DNA of 39,135 nucleotides, from positions 1 to 39,135 of the IMG/VR virus record IMGVR_UViG_3300049846_000808; one strand, written 5' to 3'. This DNA is from a virus. Under the pieces are notes generated by a model. The model saw nothing but the letters and a program-made list of their open reading frames with translations. It searched no databases and had not been told where the DNA came from. Each line of letters begins with the position of its first letter. The first letter of the stretch is position 1. The translations under genes and the position numbers were made by a program. Below, piece by piece: positions 1 through 39,135 of the stretch.

Positions 1-231
1 GTATCGACCGTATGCGGTTGAGTACGTTTATGGCGTGTTCTTTTTTCATTGGATTGGTTTTATCTCACTTACTGAATACTTTATACTTTGGCTCTCCCCG
101 TCTAGCCGTCCTACGAAACCACATTTTTTTACTACGAAATTGAAGCTTTAAAACCCCAATCAATTTTTACATCAGAAGTTTCAAATACAACACTTTCGTG
201 AAGAAATACCCAACCTATCATATCGCCCTTT
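1..231. repeat. Left copy of terminal redundancy (deleted form)
   Basis: Bases 1-107 match 38209-38315 and bases 108-231 match 39012-39135, so the two contig ends overlap and the molecule is circular or circularly permuted. Relative to the right end, this copy lacks 696 bp (38316-39011). The join is at a shared GCC trinucleotide. Bases 1-49 carry the first codons of a second copy of the minus-strand gene that is complete at 37952-38257, and bases 46-107 carry the last codons of a second copy of the gene at 38254-38448. The two forms may be population variants or an assembly artefact. Confidence 0.9.
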
Positions 232-305
232 TCATCTCTTACAGCGTGCATTTTAAGGTTGTCTTTTTTGCCTGTAACAAGGCAGGTAGGATTAAACTTA
301 TCCAT
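132..305 (-). CDS. Small hypothetical protein, paralogue 1 (57 aa)
   Basis: It encodes 57 aa starting MDKFNPTCLVTGKKDN and ending DWGFKASIS. I chose the ATG at 305 because the paralogue at 1858-2034 starts at the equivalent codon; the frame is open further upstream to 371 (an in-frame ATG) but that stretch aligns with a shared leader repeat. The protein is soluble, with one Cys and a beta-rich look, and function is unknown. A third, truncated copy of its 3' part runs off the right end (39036-39135) because of terminal redundancy. It is the last gene of the minus-strand accessory module on this side of the join. Confidence 0.6.
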   Translation of the reverse strand: MDKFNPTCLVTGKKDNLKMHAVRDEKGDMIGWVFLHESVVFETSDVKIDWGFKASIS

Positions 306-356
306 TTTATTTTTTGTGGGTTTTATAACTCCGCCCAGAAGTTTTATCGTGAAAAC

Positions 357-495
357 GGCAGCCACTAACATTGCATTGGCAAAAAAGGGGCTGACGAATG
401 TTATTGAGCCTTTTGTTATTAATTAAACTTTTGTACTATTATTGAGCGAAGTGCTATAAAGCCCCTTCTTCGCCAATGCTTTTATGTTAGCTGCT
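357..495. repeat. attC-like imperfect inverted repeat A
   Basis: Arms at 357-392 and 460-495 are inverted copies with a few mismatches and unpaired bases. The inner cores are GCATTGGCAAAAAAGGGGCT on the plus strand at 373-392, and the complement of 460-479 with two transitions. Outer ends carry CACTAAC and GTTAGCTGC. The loop is about 67 nt. The stop codon (TAG) of the gene at 494-835 lies inside the outer arm, so the element sits directly at a gene 3' end. Long imperfect palindromes with ...AAC/GTT... termini at cassette 3' ends are the hallmark of integron attC sites. The R-box consensus RYYYAAC/GTTRRRY is matched only approximately. Confidence 0.5.
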
Positions 496-835
496 ATTTT
501 ACCGACCACTCCGAAAGTTTAGAATTGACAACAATTTTCATTTCATCAACTTTTGACAATGGACAGCGAAAAGCAACCGTTTTTGTTTCTTCGTTGTATT
601 TAGGTTTTGCACCCGACCCTTTCCGAGTGCCTCCCCTTGTTTCTTTTAAAGAAAAAACACCCTCACATAATTCAGTTAATTTACTTTTAGCTTCGGAACT
701 CCAAACGCCTAAATATTCTTCTATTTTATCAGTTTCCAACCACCACCCATCCATTCTTGAATACCATACTTTAGGCTTATTAAAACCTATTTTTTCAGCA
801 TATTTAGTTAGTTCTTTTGCTGTGTATTTTTTCAT
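494..835 (-). CDS. Hypothetical protein with basic GGTRKGSGAKPK linker
   Basis: 113 aa. The N-terminal half (to about residue 60) is predicted helical with aromatic residues (VWYSRMDGWW). A Gly/Lys-rich segment GGTRKGSGAKPK follows at about residue 68, then ETKTVAFRCPLSKVDEMK. That C-terminal pattern (GxGAxxK followed by a beta strand and helix) resembles small ribbon-helix-helix-like DNA-binding proteins that are frequent in mobile DNA of Bacteroidota, so a DNA-binding role is possible but unproven. Its start overlaps the end of the gene at 804-1022 by 32 bp, and its stop codon lies in the attC-like repeat A. Confidence 0.65.
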   Translation of the reverse strand: MKKYTAKELTKYAEKIGFNKPKVWYSRMDGWWLETDKIEEYLGVWSSEAKSKLTELCEGVFSLKETRGGTRKGSGAKPKYNEETKTVAFRCPLSKVDEMKIVVNSKLSEWSVK

Positions 836-1022
836 CTTTTAATTGTTTAATCATTGGTATAATAAAAGTTACTAAAACTGATATTGAGTAAAATGTAATA
901 ACCATAGGTTTCCAAAGTATTTTACCATCATTAGTCAAAGCATCTTCTGCGTAACACATACACCAAAACAATGCGTAAAATATTGTTTGGAAAATTAGGA
1001 GTTTAACGTAAAATGTTTTCAT
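804..1022 (-). CDS. Small membrane protein (72 aa)
   Basis: It contains two hydrophobic segments, about residues 5-24 (VKLLIFQTIFYALFWCMCYA) and 38-56 (PMVITFYSISVLVTFIIPM), followed by a basic, charged tail (KQLKDEKIHSKR). It is probably a two-pass inner membrane protein. Its ATG overlaps the TGA of the upstream gene (1019-1267) by four bases, indicating translational coupling, and it overlaps the next gene by 32 bp. Function is unknown; small membrane proteins in phage accessory modules are often superinfection-exclusion or host-interaction factors, but nothing here proves that. Confidence 0.6.
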   Translation of the reverse strand: MKTFYVKLLIFQTIFYALFWCMCYAEDALTNDGKILWKPMVITFYSISVLVTFIIPMIKQLKDEKIHSKRTN

Positions 1023-1267
1023 TTTATTCCAAATGGTTTTAGTGCTTGTTCAAAAATTGGGTGCATATTAGAAGTGGAGGTTTTCGCCTCCAACTTATTT
1101 TTTTTGTCTAAGAACTTTGCCCAAAGTTTCAGAAGAGTTTTGTTGTTTTCCCCAAACTCTGAATCAAGTTTTCTAAGTTCGTCCATTGCATATTCAAGGT
1201 CTGCAATGTCTGTGCAGTTGCTTACTTTCAAGTAAGGATTGCTGTTGATTTTTTCTGTTAGTGTCAT
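1019..1267 (-). CDS. Hypothetical helical protein (82 aa)
   Basis: Soluble and mostly helical, with a charged central region (DELRKLDSEFGENNKTLL, then KFLDKKNKLEAK). No recognisable domain. It is first in a three-gene overlapping run (1267 down to 494) and has its own promoter candidate just upstream (1291-1321). This run, bounded by attC-like repeat A downstream and repeat B upstream, would correspond to one multi-gene cassette if the integron reading is right. Confidence 0.6.
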   Translation of the reverse strand: MTLTEKINSNPYLKVSNCTDIADLEYAMDELRKLDSEFGENNKTLLKLWAKFLDKKNKLEAKTSTSNMHPIFEQALKPFGIK

Positions 1268-1290
1268 TTTGTTTGTTTTTAAATCTGGTG

Positions 1291-1321
1291 TAAAAATACA
1301 CCTTTATTTTGAAACTGCAAA
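1291..1321 (-). promoter_or_regulatory. Bacteroidota-type promoter for 1267-494 gene run
   Basis: On the minus strand a TTTG at 1321-1318 is followed after 19 bp by TATTTTTA at 1298-1291, close to the -33 TTTG / -7 TAnnTTTG pattern (last base A instead of G). It lies 24 bp upstream of the ATG at 1267. A promoter inside the accessory module would let this run be expressed independently of the terminase transcript. Confidence 0.4.
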
Positions 1322-1380
1322 CTTTTTCAAAGATATTTTTAAATTATTTTCTATGGCACTGATAATCAAATAGAAAAAAA

Positions 1381-1487
1381 CAGCAGCTAACACGCAATTG
1401 GCAAAATAAAAGCCATCAAGTGTAGTGCTAACCATAAGCATTGGTGCAAGGCTTTTACTTCGCCAATCGCCACCGTTATGTGCTACC
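1381..1487. repeat. attC-like imperfect inverted repeat B
   Basis: The left arm (1381-1414) and right arm (1450-1487) are inverted copies. The left carries AATTGGCAAAATAAAAGCC and the complement of the right carries GATTGGCGAAGTAAAAGCC. Outer ends read GCAGCTAAC and, at the other end, GTTATGTGC, with extra unpaired bases between outer and inner blocks. The loop is 35 nt. As with repeat A, the TAG stop of the adjacent minus-strand gene (1483-1725) lies in the outer arm, in the same TAGCA context. The shared design of A and B, with different inner sequence, fits the attC family rather than a duplicated terminator. Confidence 0.55.
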
Positions 1488-1725
1488 TTAAAGACAGACG
1501 TTCTTTGTGCAAAGACAACAAATCTTCGTGGATAGCTTTTAATTCATCATCCATAGGTAAAACAGATTGCACTTGCTTATTTATACCAAATTCTTTTTTA
1601 CATCTTTTACAAGTAAGTTCCGCAATTTGATAATTAATTCTTCTTTTTAATTTGTACTTGTGACCAAAGGCAGCACATAACAAGTGTATTGCTGCAATTT
1701 GGGCTTGACGAATAAACTTCAACAT
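1483..1725 (-). CDS. Small zinc-ribbon-like protein (DUF1660-like), 80 aa
   Basis: Starting at ATG 1725 the protein reads MLKFIRQAQIAAIHLLCAAF, then GHKYKLKRR, and later LTCKRCKKEFG. A C-x3-GH motif followed by a CxxC pair is the layout of the short phage/prophage DUF1660 family (CxxFGHxx...CxRC), which probably binds one zinc ion. The C-terminus is helical and charged. The frame stays open upstream to 1839, but that segment runs through non-coding repeat-like sequence, so the internal ATG is preferred. The stop codon lies in attC-like repeat B. Confidence 0.6.
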   Translation of the reverse strand: MLKFIRQAQIAAIHLLCAAFGHKYKLKRRINYQIAELTCKRCKKEFGINKQVQSVLPMDDELKAIHEDLLSLHKERLSLR

Positions 1726-1815
1726 AGTAATTCTATTTAGCGTTAATAATAAATTCAGCTTGACGGTTTTCAATTGCCCAAACTGCAAAGCAATACTTTG
1801 AACGTTAGTGGCAAC

Positions 1816-1845
1816 CGTAGGACACCCGACACCGAGCATCCTACG
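1816..1845. other. Hairpin downstream of paralogue 2
   Basis: CGTAGGA (1816-1822) pairs with TCCTACG (1839-1845), a perfect 7-bp stem with a 16-nt loop. It lies just 3' of the gene at 1858-2034. A related hairpin (GTAGGA...) lies 3' of the other copy of this gene at 38991-39018. It may be a transcription terminator without a clear T-tract, or part of a recombination site. Nearby GTTAGTGGC (about 1804-1812) resembles one end of repeat A. Confidence 0.4.
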
Positions 1846-1857
1846 AGAACCACGTTT

Positions 1858-2034
1858 TTACTTCTGTATTGAAGCCTTGAACCCCCAATCAATTTTTACA
1901 TCAGAAGTTTCAAACTCAACACTTTCGTGAAGAAACACCCAGCCTATCATATCGCCTTTTTCATTTCTGACAGCGTGCATTTTAAGGTTGTCTTTTTTGC
2001 CTGTTACAAGGCAAGTGGGATTAAACTTGTTCAT
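1858..2034 (-). CDS. Small hypothetical protein, paralogue 2 (58 aa)
   Basis: 58 aa, MNKFNPTCLVTGKKDN to GFKASIQK, nearly identical along its length to the 57-aa product at 132-305. DNA identity covers the gene and stops close to its ends, where each copy is followed by a GTAGGA-stem hairpin. The ATG overlaps the TGA of the 40-aa frame upstream (ATGA). Function is unknown. Retaining two near-identical short genes about 1.7 kb apart argues for recent duplication or independent capture of the same unit. Confidence 0.6.
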   Translation of the reverse strand: MNKFNPTCLVTGKKDNLKMHAVRNEKGDMIGWVFLHESVEFETSDVKIDWGFKASIQK

Positions 2035-3346: not shown

Positions 3347-4546
3347 TTATATCCACTTCTTCGATGGCGTTTTTTTATTCACAAAGTTTGCCGATGGCCT
3401 TTCGGCAAGCACCTTGTTCTCCATGTGCCAACTGTGCAGAGCGTAGCGCATTGCATCCATCGCGTGGTCTAGGAACTCGACTGGCGTACGCGTTGGGTTG
3501 CCAAGAGCATCCTTCTTGAACCTGTAACTACGGATTTCTTTTAGCGTGTTGAATGCCCCTCGATGTACATGCAGCCTATACCTCTTTACTGTGCTTATCC
3601 CTTCTTCCCGACAACCTGCCCCTTTTTTCGCAGCTTTAATGTCATAGCCTTGCCTGAATATCTCTTCGATGATTTCTGGCCTTGCTCCGTCTGCCCATAT
3701 TGGGCAGGACTTATTTTGGACTATTTCGGGGAGCAGTGCCAAAATATCCGAGGTTGTTAGCTTAGTTTGATATAACTTTTCCGTGATATAAGCGTCTTCG
3801 CCATCAATATCAATTTCGAGCAACGCCAATGGGTCGTTTGAAAAGCCGAAATCAAGACCGTAGATTTTAATATCGGTAGCTGGGCATGTATCAAACTCGT
3901 TATAGTTATAGATAAGCGACTGACCTCCTGAACCCCGAACGCCTTCGCCATACACCTTCCAACTATCCTCGTCCTCATCTTTTAGCCTCTCGATTTCGTT
4001 TATCTGCTCGGAGGAAAGGAAAGGGTTGTCGCGATAGGTTGTGATTATATGCTTGCAGTCGCTCCTAGGCAACACCTTGTCGTAAACCCAACTGTCGTAT
4101 TCGGAAGGGTTGTAGTCAATGATTACACGACCCCTTGTCCTTAGTACCAATTGCTTGTAAATGGCGTAATCGACCTCATTAGCCTCGTTTACGTATAGTA
4201 TGTCTCGCTTTCTCCCATGCACCTTTAGGTGGTCGTCTAGGGAGAAGAAATCAATCGTGTTGCCGTTAAGCACATAAACCTTGTCTGTCTTATTGTGGGC
4301 TGCTGGGTTGTATTGGCCAACGCCAATAAGTATATCGAAAAAATCTTTATAGACGGTTGCCTTTAATGCTGGCATCGTGCGGCGCACTATACTAATTTCT
4401 AGGCCAGAGTAGCGTAGGCACTGGTTGATTATAAACTGAAGAGTACTGTACGTCTTGCCTGACCTCGTGCCGCCTTGTAAAGCCAAGACACGGGTATCTT
4501 TTATGTTGTCACGAAGGAAGGTAAAATTAGGGTTGAGAGTCGCCAT
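3347..4546 (-). CDS. terL: Terminase large subunit
   Basis: 399 aa, full length for the PBSX/Terminase_3-type packaging motor. It powers DNA translocation into the procapsid at the portal and cuts the concatemer. Walker A is GGTRSGKT (residues 25-32), Walker B is ILYVNEANE (116-124), and VIIDYNPSE (141-149) may be part of the coupling region. The nuclease domain shows YGLDFGFSND with Asp232, WADGARPE with Asp286, and FLDHAMDAMRYAL with Asp360 and Asp364, the expected RNase H-like metal ligands. It overlaps the small subunit gene by 20 bp. Confidence 0.97.
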   Translation of the reverse strand: MATLNPNFTFLRDNIKDTRVLALQGGTRSGKTYSTLQFIINQCLRYSGLEISIVRRTMPALKATVYKDFFDILIGVGQYNPAAHNKTDKVYVLNGNTIDFFSLDDHLKVHGRKRDILYVNEANEVDYAIYKQLVLRTRGRVIIDYNPSEYDSWVYDKVLPRSDCKHIITTYRDNPFLSSEQINEIERLKDEDEDSWKVYGEGVRGSGGQSLIYNYNEFDTCPATDIKIYGLDFGFSNDPLALLEIDIDGEDAYITEKLYQTKLTTSDILALLPEIVQNKSCPIWADGARPEIIEEIFRQGYDIKAAKKGAGCREEGISTVKRYRLHVHRGAFNTLKEIRSYRFKKDALGNPTRTPVEFLDHAMDAMRYALHSWHMENKVLAERPSANFVNKKTPSKKWI

Positions 4547-18600: not shown

Positions 18601-19145
18601 TGTTGATTGTCAAATAATTTACCTGTATTTCTTTCGGTCAAATTCGGTTTGGCTGCGGCTCTCCCTACGTTGCCAATGCCTAGCGTGAGCCTACTCTCGC
18701 CAACGCAAGACGTAAGCCCGTAAACGCTGAGGTTGTCGTTGAGATATACTTCTAGCTTGCGCACATATATCTGTGCGTCTGCATCTGACTGCCCAATCAT
18801 TGTCTTTATCTGCTCAACAGTAGGAGGCTCGGCCATGTCGTCACGCATGAGCCTAATGCCTTTTTCTGTCGCCTCTAACATGTTTATCGCCAAGTACCTC
18901 GAATAGCTCTTGAACACAATTACAGGCTTGACATACTCTAGCAATGTCGAGTAGTCGGGGGTAAGTGTATCGTCTGTGACCTGCGTAATTAGCTCCTGAT
19001 AAACAGGAGTAGTTAACAGTGGCTCGATAAATGCCTCCTGCACAATCCTAAGGTGTGGCTGCATCTTGCCGCTGTCATTATATAGGCTAAACGCAACCCT
19101 GTCGCGATAGTCCTGAAAGGTAGCCAGTGCTATAAACGTACTCAT
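18597..19145 (-). CDS. Head-tail connector-like protein (182 aa)
   Basis: Mostly helical, with FIALATFQDYRDRVAFSLYN, AFIEPLLTTPVYQELITQV, YVKPVIVFKSYSRYLAINML, RDDMAEPP. This resembles the DUF6712-type connector/adaptor proteins of Bacteroidota phages. The gene is coupled to the portal gene (ATGA), as expected for a protein that docks under the portal ring. Confidence 0.6.
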   Translation of the reverse strand: MSTFIALATFQDYRDRVAFSLYNDSGKMQPHLRIVQEAFIEPLLTTPVYQELITQVTDDTLTPDYSTLLEYVKPVIVFKSYSRYLAINMLEATEKGIRLMRDDMAEPPTVEQIKTMIGQSDADAQIYVRKLEVYLNDNLSVYGLTSCVGESRLTLGIGNVGRAAAKPNLTERNTGKLFDNQQ

Positions 19146-20722
19146 ACTATCCCTATGTTTTTAAGCATCAATTTTTTTCTAGGCATACATTGCCCACTAG
19201 CTGCTGGCATGTCTTTTAATTGCATTATCTTTTCGGCTTTCGCCAGCAACTGCATTGCCCATCGTGCCTCAACTAACCCCCAATCCTTTTTGTTTAGGTT
19301 TAGCAATTGCAACACCCTATCCGAGTAAATGCGACCGCTGCCAAGGCTCTTGGCGCAAGGAGTGTCGAGCCACTTGGCCAGCTCCGTGTAGGTCATGTTG
19401 AAGAGTCGGTAAAAGCGTTCGTAAGTAGCCGCAATGTCGGTCACTTGATTGAAAGGCATACTGTCTTGCTCTGGGTCGTCTGCTAAAGGGTCGGCGACTT
19501 CTACCTCCACTGTGATGCCGTAATTATCTTCTATCCAGTCGTACTTCGCATCCACAGGCAGGGCATCCCATACCTTGTCGGGCAATTCAAACGCGTATGA
19601 AAGCGGCTTAATCTTGATTTCACTTGGTATAATGCCCAGCGCGTTCCCTTCAAAAAGTTTTTGGTACTGCTGCTCGAGCCAGCTATGATAATAGCTAACT
19701 CGCTGCTGCAACATGTCTATCGCGTTTTGCAACAAATTGTTCTGGCCAAGACTACTGCCAAGGTCTGCGCCAAGCAGGACGGGATGCACCCCGAACGCCC
19801 TACCAATCGAAAGCAGTAGCTGCGTACTAACCGAGTCGCCAAGTTTGTCGTTGTAATTACTCGGGAATGCCTCTATTTTAGGAGCTGCCTCAGCAGACTT
19901 TACCCAGAACACCATTGTCGAGCCTGCGGCCTCTACGCCTTGGTTCTCCTGCATCGCCTCGTTAAACAGCTCTTCACGGGTCTTGTAAATTGCCTTTCCT
20001 TCGCTGTCAATACCAACCTGTATCTTCTCGTCCTTATCGCCTATTACGGTCATTAGGTTGGATTGAAAGAACCCATTATCAATGAGCCTATCGCGGAAAG
20101 TAGTTAGTCGACCGTCTGCGGTTATATCGTTTATTGCGGCGTAGTATTGTGGGACAGGGTAGAATCGATTATTTATGCGCGTAAGTGCCGCCCAGAATAT
20201 CTGGCCTTTAAAGTCTGCCCCAAGGGTATTGATTTGTTCCTGCGCAGCCATCTGGTCAAAAACAGGGTAGGCCACTGTTTTATCCTTTTTAAAATCAGAT
20301 GTCCCAAAGAACGGGTTATAGTGGATGTGCCTAACCTGCCCGTTTTCGTCAGGCAATTCTAATCGGCAATTCTCGAAAGGCACATGCTCGTAGCTTATCG
20401 GCTTCCCGTTGCTATTGTATCTGACTAAGACAGCAATACCACAAAGACAACCAAAGTCTTCTACTAGTTTCCCGTGCAATCCTGCAAGCGTCTGTTTCTC
20501 GCCAACAACAACCTTGCCTATGTCTTCGGCCGTAAAACCTTCTCCGCCAATGTACTTTGTCAGTATGTCTAGCGCGGCCTGTGCGGTTGGGCTAGAGTAA
20601 ACAGCCTCCGTAAGCCGTTGAGGGAAGTCGTTGTCGTTGCCGTACTTGACAATATTGGTGCTTTTATCCTTGCGACCCTCTGGGGCTTGCCCTCGCCACA
20701 AATTAAGTATCTTGTATAACAC
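19142..20722 (-). CDS. Portal protein
   Basis: 526 aa, a typical portal length. Starts at GTG 20722 inside the end of the glycosyltransferase gene (20-bp overlap). Features include RLTEAVYSSPTAQAALDILT near the N-terminus, GCLCGIAVLVRYNSNGKPIS and FENCRLELPDENGQVRHIHY (clip/wing), and SIGRAFGVHPVLLGADLGSS LG-type crown-stem sequence (about residues 313-333), which is characteristic of portals. It would form the dodecameric DNA entry ring at one capsid vertex. Unusually, it lies about 5 kb downstream of the capsid gene, separated by sugar-modifying genes. Confidence 0.82.
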   Translation of the reverse strand: MLYKILNLWRGQAPEGRKDKSTNIVKYGNDNDFPQRLTEAVYSSPTAQAALDILTKYIGGEGFTAEDIGKVVVGEKQTLAGLHGKLVEDFGCLCGIAVLVRYNSNGKPISYEHVPFENCRLELPDENGQVRHIHYNPFFGTSDFKKDKTVAYPVFDQMAAQEQINTLGADFKGQIFWAALTRINNRFYPVPQYYAAINDITADGRLTTFRDRLIDNGFFQSNLMTVIGDKDEKIQVGIDSEGKAIYKTREELFNEAMQENQGVEAAGSTMVFWVKSAEAAPKIEAFPSNYNDKLGDSVSTQLLLSIGRAFGVHPVLLGADLGSSLGQNNLLQNAIDMLQQRVSYYHSWLEQQYQKLFEGNALGIIPSEIKIKPLSYAFELPDKVWDALPVDAKYDWIEDNYGITVEVEVADPLADDPEQDSMPFNQVTDIAATYERFYRLFNMTYTELAKWLDTPCAKSLGSGRIYSDRVLQLLNLNKKDWGLVEARWAMQLLAKAEKIMQLKDMPAASGQCMPRKKLMLKNIGIV

Positions 20723-26726: not shown

Positions 26727-27776
26727 TTAGTCGTTATAGTTTTGTTTAACAATGTTTTTTACAAACGCTGCCAAAGGCTCATCATTTGCCTTGTCGAGTG
26801 GCATTTTGGGGTTTGGCGCAACGAAATTAGAGGGCCTCCCAACTGGTATCTTATTCATCACTTCGGTCACCTTGGCTTCTAGTTCGGCAAACGCCTTACC
26901 TTTCTCCTCCAACTCATTTGTAGCTTGCGCAAATGCGGCATCTCTTTCGGCCAGTTGAGCTTTTAGCGATTCAATTTCGGCTTTGGCTTCTGCCAATGGG
27001 TCAGCCTGTGCCGAAGCTTTTTTGCCGCCAGCTACTACAAGCTCAGTCCCATCGGCTAGCTTATAAGTCCCGTCTGGTAACGGCGTTCCGTCCTCCTTAA
27101 CTACTGTACCGTCCTCTAGTAGCGTTACGGCCGAGCCGTCCTCAAGCTCCATTCCCGTATCTTTAGGCACGAACTTTGCAAACATGTTTTTGATGCCTGA
27201 CAGCTCTTTAGCTATCTGTTGCATCAAGTCTGGTTTATCCATCGATTCAAATTTGGTTACGTCTAAGTATGCCACTGCTCGAAGTGGCTCGATTATCTCG
27301 TCTACAAAGCCAGCAGCTAGAGCGTCTTTTGCATTAAAGTAGGTTTCACTAGACATCAATGCCGACAGCTCTTCGGGGCTGCCTTTGAAACGGCTCTTGT
27401 AAACAGCGAGAATTTGGGCTTTGATTTGGTCAAGTTGGTCGGCTGCCTTTCTGAGCATATTCGCCGTACCCTGCACACCGACCAAAGGGTCGTGTATCAT
27501 AAATGTAGCCGTCTCGGCCATCTCTATTTTATCCCCCGCCAATGCAATAAGCGTGGCGATTGAGGCGCAAATGCCATTTATCTTAACCGTTATTGGCTTG
27601 CCTGCCCCCTTGATTAGGTTATAAATGGTATAGCCCTCGTATACTTCTCCGCCGTTCGAGCTAATTTCTACAACTAGCTCTTTCGCTGAAGCGGCAGCCG
27701 CCAATTGTTTTTTAACGCCCTCTGCGGTTACCCCGCCAGAGCCGATATTACCGAATATGCTGATTGTGCCTTGCAT
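26727..27776 (-). CDS. ClpP-type head maturation protease with scaffold domain
   Basis: 349 aa. The N-terminal ~190 residues are a ClpP/S49-like serine protease: EISSNGGEVYEGYTIYNLI (oxyanion NGG at 41-43), ICASIATLIALAG with Ser72, TFMIHDPL with His95, and AGFVDEI downstream. The C-terminal part holds an acidic/glycine stretch (EDGTVVKEDGTPLPDGTYKL), a coiled coil (AEAKAEIESLKAQLAERDA) and a C-terminal helix, typical of a fused scaffolding domain. It processes the procapsid and lies just upstream of the capsid gene. Confidence 0.93.
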   Translation of the reverse strand: MQGTISIFGNIGSGGVTAEGVKKQLAAAASAKELVVEISSNGGEVYEGYTIYNLIKGAGKPITVKINGICASIATLIALAGDKIEMAETATFMIHDPLVGVQGTANMLRKAADQLDQIKAQILAVYKSRFKGSPEELSALMSSETYFNAKDALAAGFVDEIIEPLRAVAYLDVTKFESMDKPDLMQQIAKELSGIKNMFAKFVPKDTGMELEDGSAVTLLEDGTVVKEDGTPLPDGTYKLADGTELVVAGGKKASAQADPLAEAKAEIESLKAQLAERDAAFAQATNELEEKGKAFAELEAKVTEVMNKIPVGRPSNFVAPNPKMPLDKANDEPLAAFVKNIVKQNYND

Positions 27777-37148: not shown

Positions 37149-37511
37149 TCACAAGCAGGACTCTACTTTAGTTATAAAATGACTCGTCTCGCCTCTGTTT
37201 TTAAACCAATTTTTACCAGCAGTTTCATGGTAAACTAATTTTACTTTCCATCCATGCTGTGCGGCAGAATCCAAAGTATTAATTACTTGCTGGTCGGGTC
37301 TGTCATTGTCAATTGAAAAATCAAACGGAACGCTGCTATTCATTCCTGTTTGAGTTACATTTAAATGTCCCTCCCAACTTTTCCAAATTAACCCCGTTTC
37401 TGAAAATTGGGTAATAACTCCGATTCTTTCGCCATTTGAATAATTCTCTGAACAGCTTGTTAGCATCAATGATGCTGATGCAGTCGCTAAGAAATAAAAT
37501 ACATGTCTCAT
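37149..37511 (-). CDS. Small lipoprotein (120 aa)
   Basis: The signal peptide MRHVFYFLATASASLMLTSC ends in a lipobox (MLTSC, Cys20). The mature part GERIGVITQFSETGLIWKSW, EGHLNVTQTGMNSSVPFDFS resembles a family of small lipoproteins seen on plasmids and other mobile elements, with a conserved G-x-R-x-G-x-x-T-x-F-S-x-x-G...WEG pattern. It is probably anchored in the host envelope. It is preceded by the 37-bp repeat (37523-37559) and coupled to the membrane protein that follows. Confidence 0.7.
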   Translation of the reverse strand: MRHVFYFLATASASLMLTSCSENYSNGERIGVITQFSETGLIWKSWEGHLNVTQTGMNSSVPFDFSIDNDRPDQQVINTLDSAAQHGWKVKLVYHETAGKNWFKNRGETSHFITKVESCL

Positions 37512-37522
37512 TTTGTTTAACT

Positions 37523-37559
37523 TTGGGTTTTACAAAGCCCTCCCAAGGCGTTATCGTTA
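37523..37559. repeat. 37-bp direct repeat, copy 2
   Basis: Identical to 2043-2079. Here it lies between the stop at 37572 and the lipoprotein ATG at 37511. The frame that encodes NALGGLCKTQ in copy 1 can be read (IND NALGGLCKTQS, stop) but has no start, so here it looks like a leftover gene end or a shared boundary sequence. Confidence 0.8.
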
Positions 37560-37571
37560 ATCCAACCAAGG

Positions 37572-37829
37572 CTACTGACCGCCCTCTACTTGTATTCCAG
37601 CTTCTTTAATATCTCGTATATCCACCTCTCTATTCATGTCGTCAAGGAGAATACGAGAATATCTTATCGAATGAATAGTGCCATATCTTACAAAGTACGT
37701 TCCTCGATATGGTTCTACAAAATCAACATAGCATATCCTTTTCCCTATGTTTGCTTTTACATTATCTTTGCTTACAACGAACGGTTTATAACCCTTTTCG
37801 TCTTTTTCAAAGTCTAAATACTTGCCCAT
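37572..37829 (-). CDS. Hypothetical beta-rich protein (85 aa)
   Basis: MGKYLDFEKDEKGYKPFVVS, KDNVKANIGKRICYVDFVEP, YRGTYFVRYGTIHSIRYSRI. The NIGKRICYVDF...RGTIHSI pattern suggests a small SH3/KOW-like barrel. Its start overlaps a short frame that ends at 37807. Downstream lies the 37-bp repeat. Confidence 0.6.
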   Translation of the reverse strand: MGKYLDFEKDEKGYKPFVVSKDNVKANIGKRICYVDFVEPYRGTYFVRYGTIHSIRYSRILLDDMNREVDIRDIKEAGIQVEGGQ

Positions 37830-37951: not shown

Positions 37952-38257
37952 TTAGTCTTTGCTGGCGCAAAACTCTTCAATCCAATTCACAAACGCTTCT
38001 GGCGACGTAACGTCTATTCTCTTGCCATTAAGAGTAATGACTTTTTCGACTTCTTCATACAGCCACCATTGGATGTCATCTAATACCACCCCAAATTGCT
38101 GTTCGTCTTGTGCAAAAAGAATGGCGACCGATTTTTCAAGGAGGTTTACGCCATCTTGATAGTCGATTAAATCAACACCAAGTTCTCGGAGTTTTGACTT
38201 TGTGTCCTGTATCGACCGTATGCGGTTGAGTACGTTTATGGCGTGTTCTTTTTTCAT
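37952..38257 (-). CDS. Hypothetical protein (101 aa)
   Basis: MKKEHAINVLNRIRSIQDTK, SKLRELGVDLIDYQDGVNLL, FGVVLDDIQWWLYEEVEKVI. Mixed helical fold, acidic; no family recognised. The ATG overlaps the TGA of the gene at 38254-38448. Its first 16 codons are repeated at bases 1-49 of the window. Confidence 0.65.
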   Translation of the reverse strand: MKKEHAINVLNRIRSIQDTKSKLRELGVDLIDYQDGVNLLEKSVAILFAQDEQQFGVVLDDIQWWLYEEVEKVITLNGKRIDVTSPEAFVNWIEEFCASKD

Positions 38258-38315
38258 TGGATTGGTTTTATCTCACTTACTGAATACTTTATACTTTGGC
38301 TCTCCCCGTCTAGCC
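38209..38315. repeat. Right-end match to bases 1-107
   Basis: Identical to the first 107 bases of the window. With 39012-39135 (matching 108-231) it forms the terminal redundancy; the intervening 38316-39011 is absent from the left copy. Confidence 0.9.
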
Positions 38316-38448
38316 TCACCCTCACGTACTCTACATAGATGCCCATGCGAGAAATGCTGGTTATGGTGCCGAGGCGGCCGCCGGCGGTTACCCGTAGCCC
38401 GTAGCGCATCCACGGCGGCAGTTCGGCAAATTGGGATGAGGAGGTCAT
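38254..38448 (-). CDS. Small KOW/SH3-like protein (64 aa)
   Basis: MTSSSQFAELPPWMRYGLRV, TAGGRLGTITSISRMGIYVE, YVRVRLDGESQ. The pattern G-x-R-V-T-x-G-G-x-x-G-T-I...V-R-L-D-G is that of a KOW-like barrel. The 5' half (GC-rich around 38370-38420) lies in the 696-bp segment missing from the left end, so the deleted form would lose the gene's start and keep only its last 20 codons. Coupled by overlaps to both neighbours. Confidence 0.6.
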   Translation of the reverse strand: MTSSSQFAELPPWMRYGLRVTAGGRLGTITSISRMGIYVEYVRVRLDGESQSIKYSVSEIKPIQ

Positions 38449-39011
38449 GGTTTGTTGGGGTGATATGGTTGTTGGCAGCAGCCATCCGTAACAGTCTTTA
38501 ATTTCAAAAGGACTTGACGCATCGCCCTTGACAAGTAAACAAGCCTTTCATTGTCATCAAAAATTCCATCACCAGATGGCTCTGCTTCGTAGATAGTTTC
38601 GCCGCCACATTCAGGATAATCAACCCTAAACTCCCCGTGTCTTAAACGATAATAGGCAACTTGCTTGCCGTCCTTGAAAACATCGTATTGCTCAGGGCAA
38701 GCACCACAAGTCATTTTTAATTCTAACCCGTTTTTTGCATACAGTTTATTTGCAAGCAGCATTTGTGCGTCTTGCATATCCATTGCCTGCGACCATCCAC
38801 TCATTTGTTGACCGAGCCTTCTAAATTTTTGTATTAAATTCATATATTGTAATTCTTGCTTCGCTCATAATTTTGTTTTTGAATCCCTCTGCATCATCAT
38901 GCCGCAAGCAGCTGGTTTACTCTTTCTATTATCGCTGCCCCTAACACCTCTCGGCAGATGTCGGCTGTTTGTTGCTGGTTTTGGGCCCCTGTAAGACGGC
39001 CCCGAAAGGCC
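38316..39011. other. 696-bp segment absent from the left copy
   Basis: Bounded by GCC at both sides; one GCC remains at the junction in the left copy (105-107). It contains the 5' half of the KOW-like gene, the whole 132-aa gene and most of the 43-aa frame, and its right boundary lies within the right arm of the hairpin at 38991-39018. 696 is a multiple of three but the join does not produce a sensible fusion. It may be a natural deletion allele, a variable cassette, or an assembly error. Confidence 0.75.
38445..38843 (-). CDS. Hypothetical phage protein (132 aa)
   Basis: MNLIQKFRRLGQQMSGWSQA, MDMQDAQMLLANKLYAKNGL, ELKMTCGACPEQYDVFKDGK. Cys pair CGAC followed by PEQYDVF, then YYRLRHGEFRVDYPECGGET and a C-terminal helix. 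It looks like a small, compact alpha/beta protein of a type common in phages of this host group, with unknown function. Present only in the long form of the genome end. Confidence 0.6.
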   Translation of the reverse strand: MNLIQKFRRLGQQMSGWSQAMDMQDAQMLLANKLYAKNGLELKMTCGACPEQYDVFKDGKQVAYYRLRHGEFRVDYPECGGETIYEAEPSGDGIFDDNERLVYLSRAMRQVLLKLKTVTDGCCQQPYHPNKP

Positions 39012-39028
39012 GTCCTACGAAACCACAT
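38897..39028 (-). CDS. Short ORF starting in hairpin (43 aa)
   Basis: ATG at 39028 reads MWFRRTAFRGRLTG through the hairpin, then AQNQQQTADICREVLGAAII, ERVNQLLAA and TGA. The second part looks like a genuine small helical protein, whereas the first 14 codons may be non-coding hairpin sequence. No other start codon is available downstream. In the deleted left copy the same ATG reads MWFRRTARRGEPKYKVFSK and stops. Confidence 0.4.
   Translation of the reverse strand: MWFRRTAFRGRLTGAQNQQQTADICREVLGAAIIERVNQLLAA
38991..39018 (-). other. GC-rich hairpin at deletion boundary
   Basis: GTAAGACGGCC (38991-39001) pairs with GGCCGTCCTAC (39008-39018), an 11-bp stem with one G:T pair and a 6-nt loop. 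It lies downstream of the third (truncated) copy of paralogue 1, as the 1816-1845 hairpin does for paralogue 2. It may act as a terminator without T-tract or as a deletion-prone structure. Confidence 0.6.
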
Positions 39029-39135
39029 TTTTTTACTACGAAATTGAAGCTTTAAAACCCCAATCAATTTTTACATCAGAAGTTTCAAATACAACACTTT
39101 CGTGAAGAAATACCCAACCTATCATATCGCCCTTT
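39012..39135. repeat. Right-end match to bases 108-231
   Basis: Identical to bases 108-231. It includes the 3' end (minus strand, from 39036) of another copy of the 57-aa gene, cut off by the end of the window. Confidence 0.9.

Follow-up and report, generated by a model that had tools for sequence, protein, structure and literature searches.

The window, that is the whole stretch of DNA analysed here, covers 39,135 nt (positions 1 to 39,135 of IMG/VR virus record IMGVR_UViG_3300049846_000808). Its portal protein identifies it as belonging to a tailed phage, and besides the genes listed in Table 1 it encodes a tape measure protein and a Sak-type annealing protein. Between the terminase and the tail genes lies a cluster of small minus-strand genes separated by long imperfect hairpins. 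An earlier note on this DNA had read the cluster as integron-like cassettes inserted at this place in a phage genome, and both the location and the phage setting (terminase, portal, head protease) are borne out. A search of viral contigs recovered no close relatives of the window's terminase. In one contig (L017) a distant terminase relative adjoins E2 and a cassette matching the complete cassette of the window, so the placement near a terminase is not unique to the window. Comparison with Rfam gave no match, and a tRNA search found none.

Table 1. Phage genes, hairpins and cassettes of the window.
Feature	Position	Strand	Description
Terminase large subunit	3347-4546	-	upstream (in gene direction) of the cassette region
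Portal protein	19142-20722	-	phrog_11226, E 1e-50
Head maturation protease	26727-27776	-	phrog_94, E 1e-60
E1, attC-like hairpin	366-489	-	67-nt loop; 69.4 bits, member of the model's alignment
E2, attC-like hairpin, TAACGGTGGCGATTGGCGAAGTAAAAGCC...GGCTTTTATTTTGCCAATTGCGTGTTA	1388-1478	-	112.5 bits
E3, weaker attC-like hairpin	1678-1807	-	25.2 bits, E 0.003; model not trained on E3
Truncated cassette	132-489	-	E1, GTTAGTGGCTGCC and 57-aa gene (305-132); 3' TAAC end missing
Complete cassette	486-1478	-	E2, GTTAGCTGCTG leader with promoter, three ORFs (in order 1267-1019, 1022-804, 835-494) and AATAGCAGCTAAC end
Cassette	1475-1807	-	E3, GTTATGTGCTGCC, small DUF1660-like zinc protein and GGTAGCACATAAC end
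Paralogous cassette remnant	1804-2034	-	58-aa gene (2034-1858), intact 3' end GGTTGCCACTAAC, no 5' hairpin
Cassette ORF, 82 aa, unknown	1019-1267	-	54% identical to L008 over 59 aa
Cassette ORF, 72 aa, hydrophobic, membrane-like	804-1022	-	
Cassette ORF, 113 aa	494-835	-	C-terminal 50 aa conserved in other contigs

Read on the minus strand, which is the gene strand, the hairpins share one plan: TAAC, spacer, stem, loop, stem, spacer, GTTA. This corresponds to the R''/L''/loop/L'/R' plan of attC sites with pairing boxes. Set against the attC core boxes RYYYAAC and GTTRRRY, the TAAC and GTTA are invariant and the next three bases are free. The boxes are GCAGCTAAC...GTTAGTGGC in E1, GCACATAAC...GTTAGCTGC in E2 and GCCACTAAC...GTTATGTGC in E3, and the 3' box of E3 pairs with the 5' box of E2. 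The two inverted repeats described earlier (357-495 and 1381-1487) were confirmed, with arms at 347-392/460-505 around a 67-nt loop for E1 and at 1394-1414/1450-1470 around a 35-nt loop for E2. Both fold well as single-stranded DNA (z about -3.8 for E1 and -2.5 for E2 on the gene strand), and the TAAC/GTTA ends and the ATTGGC/GCCAAT blocks are all present, as is the TAG stop codon of the ORF before each hairpin, at which its 5' box begins. The hairpins of the window are thus confirmed as real; the count of two was too low, since the third, E3, had been overlooked.

The earlier note had also missed the most telling sign, namely that the matching ends sit on the units between the hairpins. The right box of each hairpin complements the left box of the next hairpin, so the matching ends belong to the inter-hairpin unit. 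Every unit has an inverted repeat of its own at its ends, GTTAnnn...nnnTAAC, which is the signature of an integron cassette. In the window the unit-end repeat pairs are 485-500/1377-1392 (16 nt, 94%) and 1475-1489/1667-1681 (15 nt, 93%), with a further repeat pair at 355-372/1801-1818 (18 nt, 83%). The truncated cassette and the remnant are paralogous, each lacking one end. The site of an integron cassette is complete only in the excised circle, and for the complete cassette computed folding gives -28.5 kcal/mol for the circle form against -20.0 kcal/mol for the integrated form.

Some further features of the region are worth recording. A conserved Bacteroidota-type promoter (TTTG...TAnnTTTG in relatives) lies at 1290-1395, straight after the hairpin of the complete cassette. 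The idea that every cassette has such a promoter was rejected, as TAnnTTTG is not enriched (11/157 against 17 in shuffles) and the majority of the other cassettes lack one. The leader repeat CGATAACGCCTTGGGAGGGCTTTGTAAAACCC and variants of it stand before three small genes (2031-2093, 37508-37572 and 304-350), which suggests that the region has on its other side older cassettes that have decayed. The two ends of the window share sequence: positions 1-231 equal 38209-38315 joined to 39009-39135, with a 3-bp GCC joint that has no TAAC. A 693-bp segment with a 132-aa gene (38445-38843) is present in one window end (38209-39135) and missing from the other (1-231). The difference is either a variant within the population or a branch in the assembly of a circular genome.

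Relatives of the hairpins were sought with the core pattern ATTGGCGAAG-N45-75-TTTTGCCAAT across 2.9 million viral contigs. This returned 43 stretches, mostly true hairpins, and the biggest group among them is nearly identical to E2 with unrelated upstream flanks; near-identical copies of E2 were found in dozens of other viral contigs. Among 84,980 bacterial and archaeal species genomes a strict form of this pattern turned up just three times, and neither the cassette region of the window nor its hairpin was found in 50,697 isolate phages. A hairpin model built from 37 hairpins revealed tandem arrays in many related contigs, and a finder for the TAAC-stem-GTTA plan recovered 279 hairpins in related loci and 0 in shuffled sequence. 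Searches with two terminase families were positive in only 14 of about 38 related viral records, and a direct scan added G056 (L108), which has a recombinase, three hairpins, a major head protein and DnaB. In this record the recombinase gene is followed immediately by that of the terminase large subunit, as if in one operon. The other related records count as viral by the classification of the viral database itself. By profile, weaker hairpins were found in 41 of 247 sampled Bacteroidota genomes. Three loci of Bacteroidota genomes (L204, L207 and L209) have hairpins that partly show matching unit ends and mostly have no recombinase of the phage clade directly beside them.

For 51 adjacent hairpin pairs the unit ends match at 5.55 of 7 nt, compared with 3.47 (sd 0.16) in shuffled sequence. 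In 158 units found without the model the mean match is 3.91 of 5 nt against 1.86 (sd 0.08) when shuffled, and 94 of these units are exact over 5 nt. The two flanks of one hairpin match at 1.86 of 5, which is chance level. As in integrons, the cassette ends match each other only after circularisation.

Which gene each hairpin belongs to can be read from natural breakpoints. The start and end of the complete cassette recur in five independent contigs (L017, L026, L033, L036 and L045), where E2 always precedes the homologue of this cassette and the sequence past the terminal TAAC differs. In the same contigs the C-terminal 50 residues of the 113-aa protein are kept and its N-terminus varies. Among one-sided pairs that share the upstream gene the hairpin differs in 15 of 15, while pairs that share the downstream start have the same hairpin in 76 of 82. 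The hairpin is therefore co-inherited with the downstream start and not with the upstream gene, and moves with the downstream ORF. This reverses the polarity assumed at the outset, of an ORF followed by its attC. The ORF starts at a median of 33 nt after GTTA. Spacer lengths were abandoned as a test of polarity because the outcome depends on how the boxes are defined, and the breakpoint test was used instead.

The window itself contains no tyrosine recombinase (PF00589 search, E up to 10), in line with the earlier note, which had seen no integron integrase, and no attI-like motif was found in it. Beyond the window, the system does not simply lack an integrase: related viral contigs have a tyrosine recombinase dedicated to it, together with an attI-like site. 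Among the viral records of the hairpin set, six encode a tyrosine recombinase of about 270 aa, truncated at the contig end in one of them, and in all six it lies 3' of the array on the same strand. Five of those proteins were used as queries in a search blind to hairpins, which led to 80 viral loci, and the hairpins near each recombinase were counted by a finder that had not been trained on them. Upstream of the recombinase there are 177 hairpins on its strand and 8 on the opposite strand; downstream there are 0 and 1, respectively (429 kb of sequence compared downstream and 289 kb upstream). Of the 54 loci that extend 1.5 kb or more upstream, 49 contain at least one hairpin and five contain none; among recombinase clusters at 90% identity, 36 of 41 have hairpins. 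A profile search for hairpins agrees with the finder on this linkage. No hairpins were found near seven Bacteroidota recombinase controls, which are mostly Xer. The placement of a recombinase beside the array, known from integrons, is thus found in the relatives and not in the window. One 246-kb viral record (L091 and L117) carries two different recombinases of the clade, each with its own hairpin array.

In integrons the attI site adjoins the 5' end of the integrase gene. The relatives have a comparable arrangement, which is absent from the window: a conserved attI-like site, TAACTATTATATGTAAAC, about 60 nt ahead of the recombinase gene (usually 53-79 nt before its start). In 49 of 55 loci the last cassette before the recombinase ends in its own nnnTAAC, and in most loci TAACTATTATATGTAAAC or a variant comes next. 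Between 40 and 130 nt ahead of the recombinase gene, a match to the last cassette's own start was found in 33 of 49 loci, compared with 4.2 in shuffled sequence (max 12).

Cassettes have been reshuffled in natural variants. Two sister genomes, each recovered from two datasets (L067 and L070 identical over 9.9 kb, L069 and L071 identical over 6.1 kb), share four cassettes that are 98.8-100% identical and differ in their order. The joints of the reordered cassettes fall at TAAC, and the attI-like junction is common to both genomes with different cassettes in front of it. As each arrangement was assembled independently from two datasets, a chimera is unlikely to explain the difference. Reordering or exchange of cassettes with precise joints, as expected of an integron, can thus be read from these genomes.

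These data bear directly on two rival explanations. One takes the hairpins for intrinsic terminators of the ordinary kind, or for RNA hairpins, that separate phage genes, the mosaic being made by homologous recombination. They do lie just past stop codons, with a median of 9 nt from the stop to TAAC. That said, terminators would not account for the conserved TAAC/GTTA ends, the paired unit ends or the exact TAAC joints, nor for the link to one recombinase clade and one attI-like site, and the gene that a hairpin would terminate is not inherited together with it. This reading, to which we give almost no weight, is refuted by the data on linkage and breakpoints; the hairpins of the window are not ordinary terminators. 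The other explanation is phase variation, in which a recombinase flips units between inverted repeats. Tyrosine invertases are known from Bacteroidota and the units are indeed flanked by inverted repeats, but the ORFs lie on one strand in 141 of 143 units (141:2), and the sister genomes differ in order and not in orientation, which makes DNA inversion very improbable. It is equally hard to credit that the units derive from single-strand transposons of the IS200/IS605 or REP-like type moved by an HUH transposase. The hairpin that flanks the unit on one side only, and the short tetranucleotide resembling a target, would fit such elements, but the linked enzyme is a tyrosine recombinase, and unit-specific paired ends are not known as a feature of IS200/IS605-type or REP-like elements.

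An integron-like reading remains, and the next question is to which kind of recombinase the arrays belong. The catalytic residues R, K, H, R, H and Y are invariant in 22 of the recombinases. Against the IntI profile TIGR02249 they score 138-167 bits, where the cut-off is 265 bits, and they match it in two pieces with profile positions about 180-235 unmatched, that is, without the IntI-specific insertion near patch III. In a tree with three IntI rows and no outgroup root, 47 recombinases form one clade (96/80) apart from IntI and Xer, while the IntI clade (98/99) groups with Xer. Judged by profile and tree, the recombinase is not a member of the IntI family. Its closest family and structure matches are simple tyrosine recombinases of the Xer/XerA type (NF040815, XerC/D), although Xer proteins serve chromosome dimer resolution at dif and the mostly-Xer controls had no hairpins (0 of 7). 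In the 50,697 isolate phages the recombinase has only distant relatives (about 34% identity at best, none at or above 60%), and the top ones are annotated as ordinary integrases. Among the Bacteroidota genomes, relatives at 33-42% identity were found in 60 of 247. Any hairpin within 8 kb was seen for 5 of 20 chromosomal relatives, and an array of the viral type for 0 of 20, so a chromosomal counterpart of the viral system was rejected.

Among the closest published systems are the integrase-less attC-like arrays of phages, or CALINs (Qi et al. 2023, PMC9892861), which carry small genes including methyltransferases and include one phage of a Bacteroidota host, Polaribacter phage P12002L. That paper reports that one P12002L site recombines with IntI1 and reads the phage CALINs as integron components; neither a dedicated phage recombinase of the present clade nor a systematic reversed polarity is reported in the text consulted. 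Our hairpin model has a weak match of 19.7 bits in that phage (L140, 32215-32289), for which PMC9892861 reported attC sites. A phage could have taken canonical cassettes from a chromosomal integron, to be moved by a normal IntI, and besides the published precedent the general layout is alike. We consider this unlikely for the present arrays: the 41 related records contain no IntI above the family cut-off, the linked recombinase forms a separate clade without the IntI insertion, the hairpin travels with the downstream gene, and the hairpin model misses true attC sites, with no match to those of Vibrio, Shewanella or class 1 integrons.

The likeness to integrons, the textbook gene-shuffling machines of bacteria, extends to a recombinase gene with an attI-like site by its 5' end, tandem small cassettes, hairpin sites boxed by TAAC and GTTA, unit ends that pair only as a circle, and a reshuffled order. 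The differences lie in the phage recombinase, which is about 270 aa long, falls outside the IntI clade and lacks the IntI insertion; in a separate family of hairpin sequences, whose arms are matched by G-T pairs and not by bulged bases in the examples read; and in the hairpin belonging to the downstream ORF, with ORFs running opposite to those of the textbook cassette. Hence, of the original identification, the integron-like character of the cassettes stands and their assignment to canonical attC and IntI does not, the recombinase lying far below the IntI cut-off and the model missing true attC sites.

That the system functions like an integron is strongly supported by the comparison of related sequences. 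A cassette consists of a hairpin, a short leader, one to three ORFs and TAAC, flanked by its own short inverted repeat. The recombinase would bind the hairpin folded from one DNA strand and cut within TAAC/GTTA; the cassette would leave as a circle, its two ends now paired with each other, and the circle would re-enter at attI or at another hairpin. As the window has no tyrosine recombinase and no attI-like motif, the activity of its array is judged from relatives, and the array would be active only with an enzyme from elsewhere. We think it very probable that the window holds a recombinase-less, integron-like cassette array built on excision and reinsertion of circles, with its cassettes moved by a recombinase acting in trans (from a co-infecting phage or the host) or with the array as a leftover.

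More broadly, and with less assurance, we lean towards a second integron lineage: a phage-borne clade of Xer-like, non-IntI recombinases with its own attI and hairpin family and a hairpin heading each gene, found widely in the phages of Bacteroidota, whose chromosomes have hairpins too, and missed by finders based on IntI. It may have originated separately from known integrons or have branched before them. We found no description of such a recombinase-hairpin system in the open-access literature searched. The IntI insertion has been described as essential for integron function, and as incompletely conserved in an IntI-like subgroup (PMC8138268). A working system without it, if true, would be another way of recombining folded DNA and would open the origin of integrons to testing.

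Bacteroidota are described as almost without complete integrons, IntegronFinder 2.0 reporting one in Bacteroidetes proper (PMC9024848), yet matching hairpins occur in 41 of the 247 genomes sampled here. A survey of 50 cassette proteins found DNA-modification genes (Dam, C5 and N4/N6 DNA methylases, Mom and a TET-associated glycosyltransferase) together with an exonuclease, an RNA ligase, HNH, an acetyltransferase and YopX. The methyltransferases, Mom and glycosyltransferases suggest that the cassettes act as a set of interchangeable genes for anti-restriction and other accessory functions. For phages of Bacteroidota the arrays would then be a stock of small accessory genes open to exchange, including those for DNA modification. 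If this is true, phages would own a dedicated gene-swapping device, and could trade protection against restriction cassette by cassette.
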